A stretch of DNA of 22,022 nt from a virus, in the IMG/VR virus record IMGVR_UViG_3300027522_001902, positions 1-22,022 of that record; one strand, written 5' to 3'. The translations under genes were made by a program, and so were the position numbers. Numbering within the stretch: the first letter of the stretch is position 1; every line of letters starts with the position of its first letter. Below the pieces are notes generated by a model. The model was not told the origin of the DNA, did not search any database, and saw nothing but the letters and a program-made list of their open reading frames with translations. Shown here one piece after another: positions 10,709-21,761 of the stretch.

Positions 10709-10709
<1 letters not shown>
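9819..10709 (-). CDS. Clamp loader large subunit, AAA+ ATPase (T4 gp44-like)
   Basis: The protein has 296 residues. It shows the RFC-type start LFVEKYRPHDLDNFIG (3-18), Walker A GPAGTGKT (42-49), Walker B ILDEAD (97-102), sensor 1 (FTCN, 127-130) and the SRC arginine-finger motif (141-143). The C-terminal 100 residues form the helical collar. T4 gp44 is 319 residues with the same order. It works as a homotetramer with gp62 to open and load the clamp, using ATP. The ATG overlaps the GroEL stop by one base (TAATG). The clamp, both polymerase genes and the small loader subunit lie within 7 kb on the same strand, so the whole replisome is probably co-expressed. Confidence 0.95.
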
Positions 10710-12627
<1,918 letters not shown>

Positions 12628-12640
12628 TTTTTATATAATT

Positions 12641-13369
12641 TTATTGGTTTTGATTACGTACAAGGTAATAATTAGTTTCTAGGTCTCCAAATTTAAATGC
12701 AAAAGTCATTAATCCTTTTGGGTTTATTTGGACAAATCCTAATTCAAATCCTTTATTGTGCTTAAATATTTCTTTTACTAAGTCAGCATTGAATGGGATA
12801 TTATCTAAATTAACATCTAGACCCCCCTCTTCTACATTTATTGCAAAAGAAACAGAATTTGTTGAAGTTGTTCCAATAGTAAACATTACTTCTTTTGAAG
12901 TAAATCCATCCCTAGTGGAGATGTAAAATACTTCTTCACCTACAGCATCTTTTGCCTTGATAAATTTAGTAGTAAATTCTTCATTTAATTCTATTTCAAC
13001 ATTTCCCTCCATTTTATTAATTGTAGGGACAGTTGGTATTACTTGGGGATCTGCTAGATTAAAGGAAATATCCATACTAGTATCAGCTAGTATAAATTTA
13101 GATGGAGTACCACCCTCTTTATTAATATCAAACATTACTTCGTTTTCAAGTATTCCTAATAGTTTACTTAATGTTGAGGTACTATATATACCAAATTCAC
13201 CTACGGGGAATTTGAAGTTTTTGCTAATTACTTTTCCCACTAAACTTTGTGAGTCATTAATAAATTTAGCACTTAAGGATTCACTATCTGAAACCCATTT
13301 AACGCGTTCTATATTACCACCTAAGTGGTATTTTGATATAAAACGGTCTATTATTCTTTTATCTGTCAT
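12641..13369 (-). CDS. DNA sliding clamp (T4 gp45-like)
   Basis: The protein has 242 residues, close to the 228 of T4 gp45. It matches gp45 in order: FGIYSTSTLSKLLGIL (58-73) aligns with the VAIYDLNGFLGILSLV strand-helix, and the FILADTSMDISFNLADP region aligns with KIADARSTIFWPAADP. Two clamp domains are implied, so it should form a trimer round DNA. It tethers the polymerase and, in T4, also activates late transcription. The ATG overlaps the stop of the C-terminal polymerase gene (TAATG). The charged N-terminal helix (RIIDRFISKYHLGG) is normal for the family. Confidence 0.85.
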   Translation of the reverse strand: MTDKRIIDRFISKYHLGGNIERVKWVSDSESLSAKFINDSQSLVGKVISKNFKFPVGEFGIYSTSTLSKLLGILENEVMFDINKEGGTPSKFILADTSMDISFNLADPQVIPTVPTINKMEGNVEIELNEEFTTKFIKAKDAVGEEVFYISTRDGFTSKEVMFTIGTTSTNSVSFAINVEEGGLDVNLDNIPFNADLVKEIFKHNKGFELGFVQINPKGLMTFAFKFGDLETNYYLVRNQNQ

Positions 13370-14295
13370 TAGAATGAGAAAAAATTATTTACGTGTGTAT
13401 TGAGTGTTAAACTACCCCAACTTAAGTCTTGGTAGAAAGTTTCTAATTTGTTTTTTAAAATTGAGTCAAATGCTTTGTCTCTATCTATATATGTTTCCAC
13501 GAATGTACGAACTTCCTCTGGAAAATCAAAATCTAAGAAACCCATTGTGTCAATTTTATAAGGATTGTCTTTTAGATAAACCCATTTAATTTTATCCCCC
13601 TGTACTATTTGGGAGTGTTTTCTGTCTAATCCTTTAAATTTAAGGAAATCATTATAACGAACCGCTGCTTTAACGTTTACAGGGGTTCCTGTTTTTAGTA
13701 CTGTAAATATATTTCCGGCCCCCGGGGGACGTTCAACATATTTTTTAATGTCCTTTACACCTGTGGGTTTGCCCAATTGTTCCAGTGGTAAATCATTTAG
13801 GCTGTTTTTAAATTCTAGAATTTCTAAATCTATTTTGTCCCTTGTAGCTCCAAATAGGATTTTATTTAGAATGCTATTAAAGAACTTTTTAAATAGAGGT
13901 GGGAAGTTTGATTTCATAAAATCAAGACCCTTAACATCAATATCTTTTACTTTCATACCATCCTTTTTAGTAATGTACTGGGCATATCTACGTTTACCTG
14001 AGAAAAAACCTGAGCGAATAGTGCATTCGGTTTTCATCTCTAGACGATGGGATTTAATATTAAAAGCTTCTATAGCAAGAGTATCATAATACTCTGTGAT
14101 TAGGTCCTGGTATTTAAGAGCTATTTTTTCTAAAAGGTTATCTTGTTCTTCTTCTGGTAATTCAGAAAAATTAGGATATAAATGCTTTAAAAGTGGTTCA
14201 GCATGAAAGTAATTAGAATCTGTGTCTACATATGTGCAAAGATTTTTATCGCCTTCTTTACAAATCCACCAGGGTATTTCTTCTTGGTTAGTCAT
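13369..14295 (-). CDS. DNA polymerase B, C-terminal part (motif C, palm and thumb)
   Basis: The protein has 308 residues and carries the part of a T4-like polymerase that the upstream gene lacks. YVDTDS at 22-27 is motif C, with catalytic D24 and D26. GKRRYAQYITKKDG (near 100) corresponds to the KKRYALN element of T4 gp43, and DIDVKGLDFMKSNFPP to its MGMETQQSSTPK region. The thumb follows. The last residues, NTHVNNFFSF, resemble a clamp-binding peptide (small residue-xx-hydrophobic-xx-FF). With the 571-residue partner the total is 879, near the 898 of T4 gp43. The first 15 residues (MTNQEEIPWWICKEG) are extra to the fold and could be the contact with the other half. See the findings for the split. 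Confidence 0.92.
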   Translation of the reverse strand: MTNQEEIPWWICKEGDKNLCTYVDTDSNYFHAEPLLKHLYPNFSELPEEEQDNLLEKIALKYQDLITEYYDTLAIEAFNIKSHRLEMKTECTIRSGFFSGKRRYAQYITKKDGMKVKDIDVKGLDFMKSNFPPLFKKFFNSILNKILFGATRDKIDLEILEFKNSLNDLPLEQLGKPTGVKDIKKYVERPPGAGNIFTVLKTGTPVNVKAAVRYNDFLKFKGLDRKHSQIVQGDKIKWVYLKDNPYKIDTMGFLDFDFPEEVRTFVETYIDRDKAFDSILKNKLETFYQDLSWGSLTLNTHVNNFFSF

Positions 14296-14298
14296 ATA

Positions 14299-14562
14299 TT
14301 AAAATCTATCGTCTATTCCAGGTGATTTGATAATTCCCCCATCTTTCTCTCCTCTAGATGTTAATATAGTTTCTTGAATTCTTATTTCAAAAAGATTTCC
14401 TAGTATTCGTAATTTTCCCCCTTGTTGGGTCATTTTTCTAAAAAAAGTAATCTGTCTGTCGTTCCAGTCTTTTGAAAGTTCAATTATTTTTTCTTTTCTA
14501 ACATATTCACCATTTAATTTGATGATAACATTACTTCTTATTGATTGAGGGGTAAGTGCCAT
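14299..14562 (-). CDS. 87-residue protein inside the split polymerase locus
   Basis: The protein begins MALTPQSIRSNVIIKLNGEY and ends KSPGIDDRF. It is rich in Lys, Arg, Ile and Gly; the middle (ELSKDWNDRQITFFRKMTQQ) looks helical and the following GGKLRILGNLFEIRIQE looks like beta hairpin. I see no HNH, GIY-YIG or LAGLIDADG motif, no intein splice motif and no zinc site. Its start overlaps the stop of the N-terminal polymerase gene (TAATG), and its stop lies three bases from the C-terminal polymerase start. It is thus made together with both halves. It could be a bridging subunit, a remnant of the insertion that caused the split, or an unrelated passenger. Confidence 0.75.
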   Translation of the reverse strand: MALTPQSIRSNVIIKLNGEYVRKEKIIELSKDWNDRQITFFRKMTQQGGKLRILGNLFEIRIQETILTSRGEKDGGIIKSPGIDDRF

Positions 14563-16277
14563 TATAGTTCTAATTTTAATTCGTTTCTTAATACTTTATT
14601 CATATGTGTATTTGCAAACAAAGCAGATTCTTGAATAATTCTTTGACCACTTAAAGTTATAGCTTCACTAAGGATAACACTACCATACCTAAAACTAGGT
14701 AATGCTGTAGCTCCATAAAGTGAGTTTAATAAAATTTTCATAGTGTATTGTTTAAGGTGGTTTTGTTCACCATCTTTTTTATTTCCGTTTTGGTATGCTA
14801 ATTTCATAGCTTTTTTATACCTAACTCGTTCATCAAACCATTTAGATAGGATAACTGAAAGTACAGATTTTTTATCTGTTCTAAACATAACACCATTTGC
14901 AGTAACAGTTAGATTATGTTGTTTAATTTTATCTATTATATCAATTACGCGCGTATTCTGCGTTTTACGCGCGATATTTTCAAGGGGAAGTGTAATTTCA
15001 TGGTCTGTGGCGACCATAGATTCTAAATCGTTTAAACCCAGTCTATTATTTCTATCATTATAGACATCTAAAATCCTACCAATGTATGTTTCCTTTCCTA
15101 TATTAAGAGACATAATAATTGATGGGTATAGTGATGTAAGATCTTCATCAAACATGTAGTTATAAATACCTGTTTTTGGGCAGAATAAATAACCACCTGC
15201 GTAATTTTTCTTTGTTATAGGATTAAGTTCTTTATTTGGGGGTATCGTATTTTGAGCAATAAGCCAACTAGAAATAGCCCCATCATGGATGCGAGATGAT
15301 TGATAAACTTCCTCATATAATATTTTACCTTTATGAGCAAGGTTTTTTGTTAGCTCTATGTATTTAAATTTTTCATCTAATTTTTTTAAAATTAAAACAT
15401 CAACGAAGTTATACTCAATAAATTTTTCTTTATCCTCTGTAAACAACCTATCAAGTGATCCCTCATATTCGATTTTCTTTTGATCTACATATTTCTCTCC
15501 TAGGGAATCAAGTTTGTATGATGGTTCATCTTTAAAACTATATTTTTTGTGTAAACGTATATAATCTAAAGAAGCAACTCCAGCAATGCGGATAGGAGCA
15601 TCTTCACTCCAATGACGTTCCTCTATGATATTAATAGGGGACATTCTACTTGCAGTACGTTTACCCATAGTATTTTTAATTCTGTAATATAGGTAAGGGA
15701 TGTCAAAGTAATCACTATTGTATCCAACTAGGATATCTGGTTGGACTTCTTCCATCATTGAAAGAAATTTATCAAGTAAATCGGTTTCCCTAGATACTGG
15801 GATTACTTCCCTCCCTTGACTATCAAAAGTATTTTCAAGTTTTCCTTCTTTATCAACAATAACAATTTTCCATTCATCTACTTGACGATCCCACCATGCT
15901 ATTGAAGTAACGGGTTTTGGGGCGGATTTAATATATTCAGGAGTTAAAGCACCCCCCATTTCAATCTCAATATCAAAAAATAATTCTCGGTGAGTCACTG
16001 AAGGGGTATCATTATCACCATATTTATCAATAAGAAACTTAGTATGAATATTTCCTTTAGTATGATCTGAGTAATGCATTCTAGGATCTTCTCTATTCCA
16101 ATTAGATACTTTTTTTAAAGCTTCCCCCTTTAAACCTTGGTGGGTTGATTGGTTAGGTTGACATTCTATATAGCCATAATTTTGAAATTCTTCTTCAAAA
16201 TATCCTTCATCAGTCCATAGATGCATTCTATAATGATTCCATTCATCACCCCTTTGAACATAACAATTTTTATACAT
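14562..16277 (-). CDS. DNA polymerase B, N-terminal part (exonuclease, motifs A and B)
   Basis: The protein has 571 residues. The 3'-5' exonuclease is complete: Exo I LFFDIEIE (99-106, D102/E104), Exo II GYNSDYFD (185-192, D192) and Exo III YNFVD (289-293, D293). Polymerase motif A is DEDLTSLYPSI (377-387, D379 catalytic) and motif B is KILLNSLYGATA (514-525). The chain then runs through the helix aligned with T4 FGQVGIQWIARKI and stops at NELKLEL, just before where motif C (DTDS) should be. It therefore has only one of the two catalytic metal-binding aspartate sets and must need the partner gene at 13369-14295 to polymerise. The exonuclease alone should work. It overlaps the thioredoxin stop by one base. 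Confidence 0.95.
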   Translation of the reverse strand: MYKNCYVQRGDEWNHYRMHLWTDEGYFEEEFQNYGYIECQPNQSTHQGLKGEALKKVSNWNREDPRMHYSDHTKGNIHTKFLIDKYGDNDTPSVTHRELFFDIEIEMGGALTPEYIKSAPKPVTSIAWWDRQVDEWKIVIVDKEGKLENTFDSQGREVIPVSRETDLLDKFLSMMEEVQPDILVGYNSDYFDIPYLYYRIKNTMGKRTASRMSPINIIEERHWSEDAPIRIAGVASLDYIRLHKKYSFKDEPSYKLDSLGEKYVDQKKIEYEGSLDRLFTEDKEKFIEYNFVDVLILKKLDEKFKYIELTKNLAHKGKILYEEVYQSSRIHDGAISSWLIAQNTIPPNKELNPITKKNYAGGYLFCPKTGIYNYMFDEDLTSLYPSIIMSLNIGKETYIGRILDVYNDRNNRLGLNDLESMVATDHEITLPLENIARKTQNTRVIDIIDKIKQHNLTVTANGVMFRTDKKSVLSVILSKWFDERVRYKKAMKLAYQNGNKKDGEQNHLKQYTMKILLNSLYGATALPSFRYGSVILSEAITLSGQRIIQESALFANTHMNKVLRNELKLEL

Positions 16278-17029: not shown

Positions 17030-17563
17030 CTAAACCAATATAACTTCTAAGTAATCTTTTGATAATTCCTTTTCTGTAAAAAACTGCTTTAGATCTGGTC
17101 TAAAATAGTTAATATTTTTCATTACCTTTCTATCTCTCGAGCGGTAAACAACGTACGTATCACCAACTTTTTCATAGTGACAAGCTTCACCTTGCTCTTT
17201 ACTCCTCTTTTCAACCGTTGTTTGTGCTTCCTCTTCATTTGAGCAAGCTTTAGATAGATTCGATGCTTGTACTTCTTGATAGGCTGGCCAAATTTTATTT
17301 TTAAGGCCGTGTAACATAGTACCGTTCCCAAGGGAAACATAAGTAATATCACACAAAGCATCCAAAACTTCCACGATGTCGCCTCGTTCACATGCTTCTC
17401 TATATTCCTCAAGCTCTTCCAGGATGAAGTTGTATACGAATTCCCATTCTTTTTTTTCAGGTATTGTAGGTTCATAATTATTGGGTTTATTAAATAAACT
17501 ATTAAATTCTTCAACTTCATCTACAAAGGGAATATCCTTAAATAAAACTAATTGCTTTCCCAT
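17030..17563 (-). CDS. MazG-like nucleoside triphosphate pyrophosphohydrolase
   Basis: The protein has 177 residues. The metal-binding signature of the all-alpha NTP pyrophosphohydrolases is present: EELEE (49-53) and EVLDALCD (65-72), an ExxE...ExxD arrangement. The helix IWPAYQEVQASNLSK follows, as in phage MazG-like and HisE-like proteins with a V..SN.SK element. A C-terminal 60-residue part (about 115-177) has no known domain. Such enzymes remove (d)NTPs or the alarmone ppGpp; in phages they are thought to control the nucleotide pool or the host starvation response. It overlaps the next upstream gene by one base. An alternative frame within it is a shadow. Confidence 0.8.
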   Translation of the reverse strand: MGKQLVLFKDIPFVDEVEEFNSLFNKPNNYEPTIPEKKEWEFVYNFILEELEEYREACERGDIVEVLDALCDITYVSLGNGTMLHGLKNKIWPAYQEVQASNLSKACSNEEEAQTTVEKRSKEQGEACHYEKVGDTYVVYRSRDRKVMKNINYFRPDLKQFFTEKELSKDYLEVILV

Positions 17564-18563: not shown

Positions 18564-19259
18564 TTAAATGTTGTGTCCTCCGTTATTAATTTTTAAACTA
18601 TCAAAAAATTCTTTTCTTGATAAATTATTGTTATCTCTAAATACTCCTGATGCTTTGGTAGTAACCATAGCTGCTCCTTCATGTTTAACACCTCTACAGC
18701 TTACACAGTTGTGTGTTCCTACTATAGTAACAATAACTCCTCTATTACCCTCAGTAATTTTACCTACAGCATTATGAATAGCTGATGTTAATTGTTCTTG
18801 AATAGCACCTCTACGGCCAAATAACTCTACAATTCTGTTAAGTTTAGATAGCCCGATTACTTGGCCACTTTCCCCTGCTATATAACCAATGTGAACTACT
18901 CCCCCAATTGTTTGGTGGTGGTGAGAACACATTGAAGTTAATGGGATATTTCTTTCAATAATAATACCATCATAGCCATCACTTGGAAAGGAAGTAATAG
19001 GAGACATTGCTGTGTATCTACCTTCCCATAAATCATTTACATATGATTTTGCTACTCGTTTTGGGGTTTCCATTGAATTTGGGTCATTTCTCCAATCACA
19101 TCTTAATGCATCTAAAAATTGACCAAAGGCATGGGTAGCATTTTCAATCATATCTAATTTTTCTTGGTTTGATAAAGGAAATCCTTTTGCAACACCATTT
19201 GCAAAACCCTCTTGTACTACTTCTAACTCTTCGTGAATTTTTCTTCTTTTATTTTCCAT
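18564..19259 (-). CDS. folE: GTP cyclohydrolase I
   Basis: The protein has 231 residues. METPKRVAKSYVNDLWEG (63-80) is the family substrate-side helix. The zinc ligands are C111 and H114 in MCSHHHQ (usual CEHH) and C185 in THNCVSCRG (usual HYCVxxRG). GLSKLNRIVELFGRRGAIQEQLT (136-158) is the conserved SKLxRIVxxFxxRxxxQExLT block. The enzyme turns GTP into dihydroneopterin triphosphate, the first step to tetrahydrofolate and to 7-deazaguanines. QueE and QueC upstream in the same run show that the deazaguanine branch is intended. The Glu of the CEHH motif is Ser here. Its start overlaps the HPRT stop. Confidence 0.95.
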   Translation of the reverse strand: MENKRRKIHEELEVVQEGFANGVAKGFPLSNQEKLDMIENATHAFGQFLDALRCDWRNDPNSMETPKRVAKSYVNDLWEGRYTAMSPITSFPSDGYDGIIIERNIPLTSMCSHHHQTIGGVVHIGYIAGESGQVIGLSKLNRIVELFGRRGAIQEQLTSAIHNAVGKITEGNRGVIVTIVGTHNCVSCRGVKHEGAAMVTTKASGVFRDNNNLSRKEFFDSLKINNGGHNI

Positions 19260-19771
19260 TAAACTGTGTAAATTGTCTTTAAATTCCTGTTATATCCATT
19301 TTCATCATCCATACCATACCCTATATAAAATGGGTCAAATATAGAATCTGATTCTTGCTTTAATATATAAAAGGCATCTGGAAAATCCAAATTTTCTTTT
19401 AAAATAGTTGTAACTGCTGTTATGCTTTTGGGGTGTTTTACTTTTAAAAAGCTTTTAACTGCTATCATAGTATTACCTGAATCAATAATATCATCTACTA
19501 AATAAACATGCTTTCCTTTAATTTTAGTTTCTAAATCTTTAGTAATAGATAAGTCTCCTTGTTTTTTCCCAAAATAAGATTTACATCTAATAAAATCAAT
19601 TTCAATTGGGGTTGTAATTTGTTTAACTAAATCACTAAAAAACATAAAGCCCCCATTTAATATGCAAACCATTACTATAGGGGTTGCATCTCCCCTGTGT
19701 TTGTCGCTAATGCGTTTTGCTAAAATTTTAACTTGAATATCAAGCTCTTTTTCACTTATTACTGGTTCCAT
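19259..19771 (-). CDS. Hypoxanthine/guanine phosphoribosyltransferase
   Basis: The protein has 170 residues, typical for bacterial HPRT (about 175-180). The PRPP loop is YLVDDIIDSGNTM (90-102). VCILNGGFMFFSDL (35-48) is the first phosphate-binding loop, and DFIRCKSYFG (59-68) the flexible loop with the usual Ser-Tyr. Downstream DPFYIGYGMDDENGYNRNL is the hood and dimer region. It makes IMP or GMP from a base and PRPP. In this gene order it would recycle guanine released from degraded host DNA, or exchanged out of phage DNA by a transglycosylase, into GMP and then GTP for FolE. This link is inference. It overlaps FolE by one base. Confidence 0.93.
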   Translation of the reverse strand: MEPVISEKELDIQVKILAKRISDKHRGDATPIVMVCILNGGFMFFSDLVKQITTPIEIDFIRCKSYFGKKQGDLSITKDLETKIKGKHVYLVDDIIDSGNTMIAVKSFLKVKHPKSITAVTTILKENLDFPDAFYILKQESDSIFDPFYIGYGMDDENGYNRNLKTIYTV

Positions 19772-19899
19772 TCGTTTTCTATCATAACTTTTAATTTATC
19801 TATTAAACCTTCTACGTTATCAGGGTCCATAGTAACCGCACAACAAGTAATTACGTGTTGTCTTATTTGTTCTAGGAGGAGGAGTGCTTCTTTATTCAT
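19759..19899 (-). CDS. 46-residue protein between QueE and HPRT
   Basis: A short complete frame starts at a TAATG overlap with the QueE stop and ends 13 bases inside the HPRT gene. It begins MNKEALLLLEQIRQHVITCC and ends KVMIENEWNQ. It appears helical with two adjacent cysteines (C19, C20). Both junctions agree with the coupled style of the operon. No family is recognised. Confidence 0.6.
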   Translation of the reverse strand: MNKEALLLLEQIRQHVITCCAVTMDPDNVEGLIDKLKVMIENEWNQ

Positions 19900-20672
19900 T
19901 ATACTCCTATTTGGGTGTTGTATGCTATAATATGGTCTCTACCAGTCATATTATAACCGTGTTCTGCTACCATTTCAAATACTTTAGGGTACATTTCTAC
20001 TAGAGTTTCTCGTGTATCTCCAGCAGGCATTACAAATGTTTTATCCTTAGGGATATTCATTTTAACCCTAAATTCTTCAATTTCTTTTAAACCTTCATCT
20101 GTACCATCCCAAACAGGTTTATAGTGGTAATCACTATGGTATTCTAATGTTTTTTTAATATTTTCATAATGTAATCGAAACTTGTTATGCTGCTTGACAA
20201 ACCTTTCATCAACAACTTTACCACCGGGAGTAGTAATACCCACCCTAGGAATAGAATTAGAAAACTTAGGACTAAGAGATATGAGATCAATTGGGTAATC
20301 AGTCTCAACAAAATGGGATCCTTCTGTTTCAATTGTAATGATAATTTTTCTTTCATTGGCAAAGTGTGTAAGTTCATTTACTAATGCGGCATGCATTGTA
20401 GGAGAACCCCCAGTGAGCATCATTTCTTTTACTTGTGGGTTCTCGTCATAAATAGCGATTATATCATTAAAATTAAAAATACCTTTTTGGGGGTGTATAG
20501 AAGTATACCAACTATCACACCACCCGCCATCTCCAAACCAACATCTGTGAGTACAACCTGTGGTTCTTACAGCTATAGTAGGCCTTCCAAATCTTGAGCC
20601 TTCACTTTGTACACAACGATATACTTCTAATACGGGTAATACTTTGTTGTAATCCTCTATTCTTTTATTCAT
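19899..20672 (-). CDS. queE: 7-carboxy-7-deazaguanine synthase, radical SAM
   Basis: The protein has 257 residues. The N-terminus LPVLEVYRCVQSEGSRFGRP is the usual QueE start (xxxExFxSxQGEGxxxGxP). The cluster cysteines follow as TTGCTHRCWFGDGGWCDSWY: C40, C44 and C52, giving CX3CX7C instead of the usual radical SAM CX3CX2C. MMLTGGSPTMH (near 89-99) is the SAM-binding GGE/GGSP motif, and IETEGS (near 123) the substrate strand. It converts 6-carboxy-tetrahydropterin into 7-carboxy-7-deazaguanine. QueD, which makes its substrate, is not in this window. It lies three bases overlapping QueC and before the 46-aa gene. The extra five residues in the cluster loop are the odd point. Confidence 0.92.
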   Translation of the reverse strand: MNKRIEDYNKVLPVLEVYRCVQSEGSRFGRPTIAVRTTGCTHRCWFGDGGWCDSWYTSIHPQKGIFNFNDIIAIYDENPQVKEMMLTGGSPTMHAALVNELTHFANERKIIITIETEGSHFVETDYPIDLISLSPKFSNSIPRVGITTPGGKVVDERFVKQHNKFRLHYENIKKTLEYHSDYHYKPVWDGTDEGLKEIEEFRVKMNIPKDKTFVMPAGDTRETLVEMYPKVFEMVAEHGYNMTGRDHIIAYNTQIGV

Positions 20673-21514
20673 GCTGCTTCTAATACTTTTTTTACTTCGG
20701 TCTTAACAAAATCCCATGAGACTTCCCCTTGTTCGTTAGCGTAGGGGGCAGGATCAGGTCGGCCTAATTTAATAAATGCTTCAACCCTTTCAACCGAAGA
20801 TGCCGATTTATAATCACTATACCACTTACCATTAATATTAATGGGCTTATAGCTAGTATTTGTATTTCGATACACTGTATCAAAGTCAAGTCCGAGCTGA
20901 TCGCAGCATTTGGCTCCATCTTTAAGTATATCAAACTTATCCCCATTAAGATAAGGGGTGACATAGCTAACGCGTTCAGCATCCCAATTACCTTCGGTAA
21001 AGGCATGATGGTCTGCGTCCCTAAATTCTTGTCTACAATCAGGGTAGATTGCGTGATCACCTGCATGAATACCCATTGCAATATGTACTTCTGTGTTTTT
21101 TTCATTTGCTTTTGATAATGCTACTGCTTGAATTATAGATGAAAATATTTTATTACGATTAGGAACAACAGTTTCTTTCATATTTTCCTGTTTGTAGTGT
21201 CCCTCAGGTACTTCATTTCCCCCTTCTACAAGAGCACTATTAAGCATAGGAGCTAAACCACCAAGTTTAATTACTCCATATTTGACCTTATTATATTGTT
21301 TTTGAAAATCATTAGTTGGAAGAATTTGAAGATGATTTCTATTAATATAATTAACTAGTGATTGTGCTCTTTTAAGCTCTACTTTATGTTTTTGCCCATA
21401 ATCAAAGCTTAAAGCTGTAACTTCGTAACCGTCTGCTAATAGACGTAATAAAACAGTTGAACTGTCCATTCCTCCACTTAATGATAGTACTGCTTGTTTA
21501 TTGGTATTCTCCAT
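20669..21514 (-). CDS. queC: QueC-like 7-cyano-7-deazaguanine synthase without zinc cysteines
   Basis: I chose the ATG at 21514 (281 residues, MENTNKQAVLSLSGGMDS). The PP-loop SGGMDSS (13-19), SFDYGQKHKVELKRA, VVPNRNKIFSS and YPDCRQEFRDAD are all as in QueC, which turns 7-carboxy-7-deazaguanine, ammonia and ATP into preQ0. However, the C-terminal zinc site (four cysteines, last three as CxxCxxC in B. subtilis QueC) is replaced by S221, D234, S237 and S240 in TNTSYKP and SDYKSASS. The surrounding residues still align, so this is loss of ligands and not a shifted frame. The protein may be stable without zinc or may make a different product. Overlap with the 87-aa gene upstream is 17 bases. Confidence 0.9.
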   Translation of the reverse strand: MENTNKQAVLSLSGGMDSSTVLLRLLADGYEVTALSFDYGQKHKVELKRAQSLVNYINRNHLQILPTNDFQKQYNKVKYGVIKLGGLAPMLNSALVEGGNEVPEGHYKQENMKETVVPNRNKIFSSIIQAVALSKANEKNTEVHIAMGIHAGDHAIYPDCRQEFRDADHHAFTEGNWDAERVSYVTPYLNGDKFDILKDGAKCCDQLGLDFDTVYRNTNTSYKPININGKWYSDYKSASSVERVEAFIKLGRPDPAPYANEQGEVSWDFVKTEVKKVLEAA

Positions 21515-21761
21515 ATAAATTATAAGTTTTAGGTTGTGGTGGTTCAGGTTCTGGTATTTCTTCTTCACTATAAATGTATACTTTACCTTCGGCTGCTTTT
21601 ATTACATAATCTGTAGGTTTTTCTTTACTATTTTGAAATGCCCATTCAATCCCTTCGGTTAAAGAAGAAAGTATTGGTTGGTCACTATCAATAGGGGTCC
21701 ATCTATCACCTGGAGGGAGCCTTTTTAATATTGGTTTTAATATAATATCTTTTTCAGCCAT
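21498..21761 (-). CDS. Small protein of unknown function with Pro/Glu-rich tail (87 aa)
   Basis: The protein begins MAEKDIILKPILKRLPPGDR and has LTEGIEWAFQNSKEKPTDYV, then GKVYIYSEEE, then a tail of EPEPPQPK. It is acidic at the C-terminus. No family is recognised. Its start follows the endonuclease stop by one base, and its end overlaps QueC by 17 bases, so the gene belongs to the same operon. Confidence 0.6.
   Translation of the reverse strand: MAEKDIILKPILKRLPPGDRWTPIDSDQPILSSLTEGIEWAFQNSKEKPTDYVIKAAEGKVYIYSEEEIPEPEPPQPKTYNLYGEYQ

Follow-up and report, generated by a model that had tools for sequence, protein, structure and literature searches.

The window, the complete 22,022-nucleotide stretch of viral DNA that was analyzed, encodes on its minus strand a zinc-free homologue of QueC, a 7-cyano-7-deazaguanine synthase-like protein of 281 aa (20669..21514; ATG ending at 21514, stop at 20669-20671). 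The assignment rests on Pfam PF06508 (126.6 bits, E 1.3e-36) and PHROG 1550 (QueC-like, 144.9 bits) profile searches together with alignments. The stop codon of queC overlaps by 4 bases the ATG of queE, which encodes a QueE-like radical SAM enzyme of 257 aa (19899..20672, minus; PHROG 2076, 162.3 bits). The cluster cysteines of this QueE (20517-20555, minus) are arranged as C-x3-C-x7-C, as against the usual radical SAM C-x3-C-x2-C; 62 matches to the x7 motif were found in viral loci, and other surveyed phages mostly have x2. A phosphoribosyltransferase gene (19259..19771, minus; PF00156, 83.7 bits), which recurs in the neighbourhood of QueC on many related viral contigs, sits between queE and the gene for FolE, GTP cyclohydrolase I (18564..19259, minus; PF01227, 140.4 bits). 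A MazG/PRA-PH-like pyrophosphohydrolase (17030..17563, minus; PF01503, 39.7 bits) adjoins this 7-deazaguanine group and is conserved beside it, with 58-84% identity to the homologue of Flavobacterium phage vB_FspM_immuto_2-6A (immuto) across loci. Directly upstream of queC lies an 87-aa ORF (21498..21761, minus). Elsewhere on the minus strand, a family B DNA polymerase is divided between two genes (571 + 308 aa; 13369-16277) that flank another 87-aa ORF without a Pfam match, and a phage-encoded GroEL (Cpn60, 235 bits) is accompanied by a GroES-like gene (10709-12627).

In the closest relative, contig L003, whose QueC is 84% identical to that of the window, the gene order is queD, dpdA, a nuclease-like gene, the 87-aa ORF, queC, queE, the phosphoribosyltransferase gene and folE. 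DpdA and QueD are not encoded in the window, which ends within the nuclease-like gene; given the order in L003, queD and dpdA of the window phage probably lie directly beyond the contig end.

Outside the zinc site the protein carries the motifs of QueC, as an earlier note on this DNA had read from the letters: SGGMDSS, FDYGQKH, VPNRNKIF and YPDCRQEF were all found. On the minus strand these correspond to the SGGMDS ATP pyrophosphatase loop (residues 13-18; 21461..21478), FDYGQKHKVE as the YxQxHxxE motif (Y39/Q41/E46; 21377..21406), VVPNRN as the VPxRN motif (V117-N121; 21152..21169) and YPDC (Y157-C160; 21035..21046). The YxQxHxxE and VPxRN motifs follow PMC13329287, and the role of Y157 and D159 of YPDC in recognition of 7-carboxy-7-deazaguanine (CDG) follows PMC13279940. 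The SGGxDS loop (S13-S18) is retained by nearly all members of the zinc-free family.

The latest survey of the family describes QueC as a zinc-binding enzyme with a C-x8-CxxCxxC hallmark and calls zinc necessary for its function (PMC13329287, citing earlier papers). When the window protein was aligned with E. coli QueC and with the canonical QueC of phages, planctomycetes and archaea, this site was absent. The zinc cysteines C188/C197/C200/C203 of E. coli fell on S221/D234/S237/S240, in agreement with the earlier reading that all four had been replaced, by Ser, Asp, Ser and Ser. The former site, aligned on E. coli C188/Y189/C197/C200/C203, occupies 20795..20854 (minus); coordinates counted back from the start codon (ATG at 21514) place S221 at 20852-20854, Y222 at 20849-20851, D234 at 20813-20815, S237 at 20804-20806 and S240 at 20795-20797. 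The spacing, which had been thought unchanged, is kept within CxxCxxC but not before it, the gap from the first to the second position being 12 residues vs 8 in canonical QueC and longer in several relatives as well. The essential Tyr that follows the first Cys (E. coli Y189) corresponds to Y222 and is retained in 57/57 members of the zinc-free family. The protein scored below the TIGR00364 QueC equivalog cut-off (118.6 vs 150.3 bits), as did two Cys4-bearing proteins, the QueC of Campylobacter phage CP220 (139.5 bits) and L109, the QueC of a Pseudomonadota MAG (CSMAG_131; 148.3 bits). Since it has neither the zinc motif nor a score above this cut-off, the protein is classed by its sequence as a zinc-free variant, set apart from canonical QueC.

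Canonical QueC (E. coli P0AG67; B. subtilis 3BL5; PF06508 cluster 1, Libby et al. 2026) served as the reference for comparison. The window protein has in common with it SGGxDS, YxQxHxxE, VPxRN, YPDC, the Tyr of the C-terminal loop, the fold and the gene neighbours, but it lacks C-x8-CxxCxxC, is about 30% identical or less, and its loops are longer both ahead of the former site and within it. Linkage to folE, queD and queE was found across the two contigs, with queE and folE in the window and queD and dpdA in L003. The best-scoring Cys4 phage relatives, the QueC of Rosebush-type mycobacteriophage and of Arthrobacter phage Sonali (33-35% identity), have VPxGHY-xx-NM, VPNRN and H[AV]GDHAxYPDCR in common with the window protein but, unlike it, retain all four zinc cysteines; Rosebush DNA carries dPreQ0 (PMC6884629). 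The QueC of the immuto phage, annotated simply as QueC, is 63.5% identical and has the same S/D/S/S site. Its genome encodes folE, queD, queE, queF and dpdA; QueF and a formyltransferase-like gene adjoin dpdA, and the latter is found beside dpdA in some contigs as well. A 2023 NAR paper on further phage 7-deazaguanines reportedly covers immuto phage DNA. The window protein differs from LarE in retaining all QueC motifs, and immuto QueC scored 20.6 for LarE vs a cut-off of 150.

An AlphaFold2 model of the window protein (pLDDT 87.8; 86-88 in the former zinc loop) supports the earlier suggestion that the fold remains; its nearest solved folds were Cap9 (Z 18.4), B. subtilis QueC (18.3), QatC (18.1) and Erwinia QueC (17.5). 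E. coli QueC is inactivated by Ala at Y35, R99, Y131 or Y189 (PMC13329287), and the corresponding Y39, R120, Y157 and Y222 are invariant in 57/57 zinc-free members. CDG is bound in Cap9 by a Tyr and an Asp (PMC13279940), which correspond to Y157 and D159 of YPDC, also invariant in the family. Thus, the same acid, CDG, is probably the substrate, as the earlier note had proposed.

The match to Cap9, as close structurally as that to QueC (Z 18.4 vs 18.3), would fit a changed function, in which the enzyme makes another 7-substituted base or joins CDG to protein in a Cap9-like manner. Cap9 acts on protein and QatC is proposed to do so (PMC13279940, PMC13329287). These anti-phage QueC relatives have a fold like that of the window protein (Z about 18), and Cap9 has YxDC, but both retain the zinc cysteines that the window protein lacks (PMC13329287). 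The gene is moreover grouped with folE, queD, queE and dpdA, the zinc-free form replaces canonical QueC in cells, and no CD-NTase or qatABD was annotated around immuto QueC or among the scanned window proteins, which represent part of the ORFs. A changed function is therefore considered highly improbable.

Loss of the hallmark site could also be the mark of a gene decaying in one phage. This explanation was refuted by the open reading frame, by conservation over the full length and by the site itself, which read S/D/S/S in 98/98 viral-type loci with a readable site, a set that includes a few contigs of bacterial bins and genomes. These loci represent 76 distinct DNA sequences, all invariant at the D, S and S positions and with synonymous drift of the codons; the Ser codons differ, and the last position has both TCN and AGT. 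Because S/D/S/S is fixed while its codons drift, the new site is under purifying selection rather than in decay, and virtually no weight is left for decay. The alignment survey that the earlier note had called for thus revealed a loss that is family-wide and extends to cells.

Zinc might still be held by other ligands, namely Asp, His, C160, C203/C204 or a partner protein. Cys is found at C204 in 38/57 family members, among them each of the 23 viral rows, and the zinc-free family also has (nearly) invariant C160, H150 and H154. However, C204 is missing from the majority of members in planctomycetes and archaea, and C203 is Cys in 18/57 members, all of them viral, so that C203 and C204 were ruled out as replacement ligands, and with them the C-C pair near residue 203 that had been named as a possible rescue. 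The sole (nearly) universal Cys across the family is C160 of YPDC. Together with H150 and H154 it is already present in the Cys4-bearing L109, and these residues were therefore not acquired as substitutes for the zinc cysteines. Alignment revealed no conserved replacement zinc ligand across the 57 zinc-free members. Zinc binding by other ligands is accordingly held to be very unlikely, and the loss of the site favors the earlier suggestion that zinc was given up.

Prokaryotes were scanned with one genome for each species, and Poseidoniales/MGII archaea, marine planctomycetes and Cysteiniphilum/Facilibium-type (Fastidiosibacteraceae-type) bacteria yielded relatives at 44-58% identity; identities of 44-61% were seen among the relatives in these groups that likewise lack the zinc cysteines. 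The bacteria near the phages have S/D/S/S at the zinc positions, and the archaea and planctomycetes of the family have S/S/S/D or S/(H,D,N,A)/T/D. L109 (49% identity) has all four cysteines and matches the family at the scored family-specific positions apart from the cysteine position, suggesting that the enzyme gave up zinc and otherwise changed little. In a 96-protein tree with the site columns included, the 57 zinc-free members formed one clade (97/88) with L109 as its sister (100/99). When the site columns were removed, the zinc-free group required two changes and L109 apparently fell between subclades; one or two losses are thus possible inside the main family. In Poseidoniales loci, including L047 (5001-6060), QueC is fused in frame, at its C-terminus, to a methionine sulfoxide reductase domain (SelR/MsrB). 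Viral-type QueC is also carried by short contigs assigned to MAGs of Pelagibacter, Flavobacteriaceae or Woesearchaeota (L037-L039, L043, L046); they are probably phage contigs inside MAGs and were left out of the cellular counts.

In other parts of the tree, outside the main family, Pseudanabaena phage Pan1, Dinoroseobacter phage R5C and Rhizobium phage RHEph04 (L028, L029 and L034) have A/T/D/T or A/T/D/S at the zinc positions, a loss independent of the main family. The planctomycete QueC L321 has D/Q/N/S, in a genome (G068) with TGT and QueA, and apparently represents a third independent loss. Both are separate from the main family whether it had one loss or two.

Canonical and zinc-free QueC exclude each other in cellular genomes. 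Each of 30 genomes (29 zinc-free and that of L109) had exactly one full-length QueC, a count that includes many incomplete MAGs, and their other PF06508 matches were weak superfamily ones that did not exceed 27 bits. Within the order that contains Cysteiniphilum, the zinc-free form alone was present in 13 genomes and the Cys4 form alone in 2. The zinc-free and canonical classes (about 14 vs about 57), assigned by score and checked by sequence for those retrieved, never occurred together in 77 Thermoplasmatota genomes. Nearly all of 79 planctomycetes had the canonical score class, and the zinc-free family was found only in G013.

The genomes with the zinc-free gene also encode the partners of QueC. 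QueD was detected in 39/39, TGT in 28/30 and 21/21, QueF in 24/24 bacterial genomes and QueA in 24/25 (bacterial) genomes; queD adjoins queC in 15/15 Poseidoniales and 11/13 Fastidiosibacteraceae-type genomes. The final steps of queuosine and archaeosine synthesis require preQ0 (PMC13329287, PMC6884629). With the zinc-free enzyme as sole QueC ahead of these steps, the cellular form most likely makes preQ0; salvaged preQ0 could, in principle, supply TGT in these genomes. The proposal in the earlier note of a different 7-substituted base is unsupported, since TGT, QueF and QueA need preQ0 and genomes encoding them have this enzyme type as their sole QueC; this type is also found in QueF-carrying phage genomes.

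The viral zinc-free copies are neighboured by homologues of DpdA, QueD, QueE and FolE. Profile searches detected QueF in 10/32 viral records, and the S/D/S/S site is present in records both with and without it; zinc loss is thus not tied to one final base, and a link to the type of final modification was rejected. QueF was undetected in all ten window-type contigs searched, which are fragments of up to 110 kb, consistent with dPreQ0 as the end product of these phages. A pathway-wide saving of zinc was rejected as well. Type-I FolE (PF01227) is zinc-dependent, and the window FolE belongs to this family, with Cys and His at the usual places in its sequence.

The detection of no QueF in these ten contigs, and hence of no demand for preQ0 in the phage genome, would also suit an enzyme that without zinc stops at the amide (ADG), a normal QueC intermediate (PMC13329287), which DpdA would insert as dADG. 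However, the same site type is found in the sole QueC of genomes with TGT, QueF and QueA, where the nitrile is needed, and in phages with QueF, which itself needs the nitrile. Further, CP220, reported with 100% dADG (PMC8306585), has a QueC that aligned with all four zinc cysteines in place, and a link between zinc loss and dADG was rejected. An enzyme stopping at the amide is thus judged very unlikely. It is considered distinctly unlikely that in the QueF-less viral branch the enzyme gives an amide or other 7-substituted base to DpdA, so that the DNA would not carry preQ0.

Collectively, these data suggest that the window protein is very probably a working, zinc-independent QueC, a preQ0 synthase that feeds DpdA; catalysis, product and the absence of metal are inferred. 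In the proposed model, the enzyme would activate CDG with ATP, as zinc QueC does, ammonia would be added to the activated acid to give ADG, and ADG would be activated in turn to release the nitrile preQ0. The Cys4 zinc knot, which normally pins the C-terminal loop next to the active site, would have given way to a loop lined with Ser and Asp that can fold unaided and still positions the essential Y222 (E. coli Y189). Zinc in QueC would then be a structural pin for the Y222-bearing loop, for which the zinc-free family uses other contacts. In the phage, FolE, QueD, QueE and the zinc-free QueC would supply preQ0, and DpdA would insert it into phage DNA in exchange for guanine. Relatives that carry QueF could continue to preQ1-type bases.

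QueC itself is a known enzyme, and the zinc-free form is new as a variant. Genuine QueC genes will be overlooked or misnamed where annotation relies on the cysteine motif. The zinc site appears to have been lost separately at least three times, and the QueC pathway appears to operate without zinc in whole lineages, including Poseidoniales archaea and many marine phages. The part played by zinc in QueC, the holding of a loop, would thereby be separated from catalysis, and its role becomes directly testable in natural pairs such as L109 and its zinc-free sisters.
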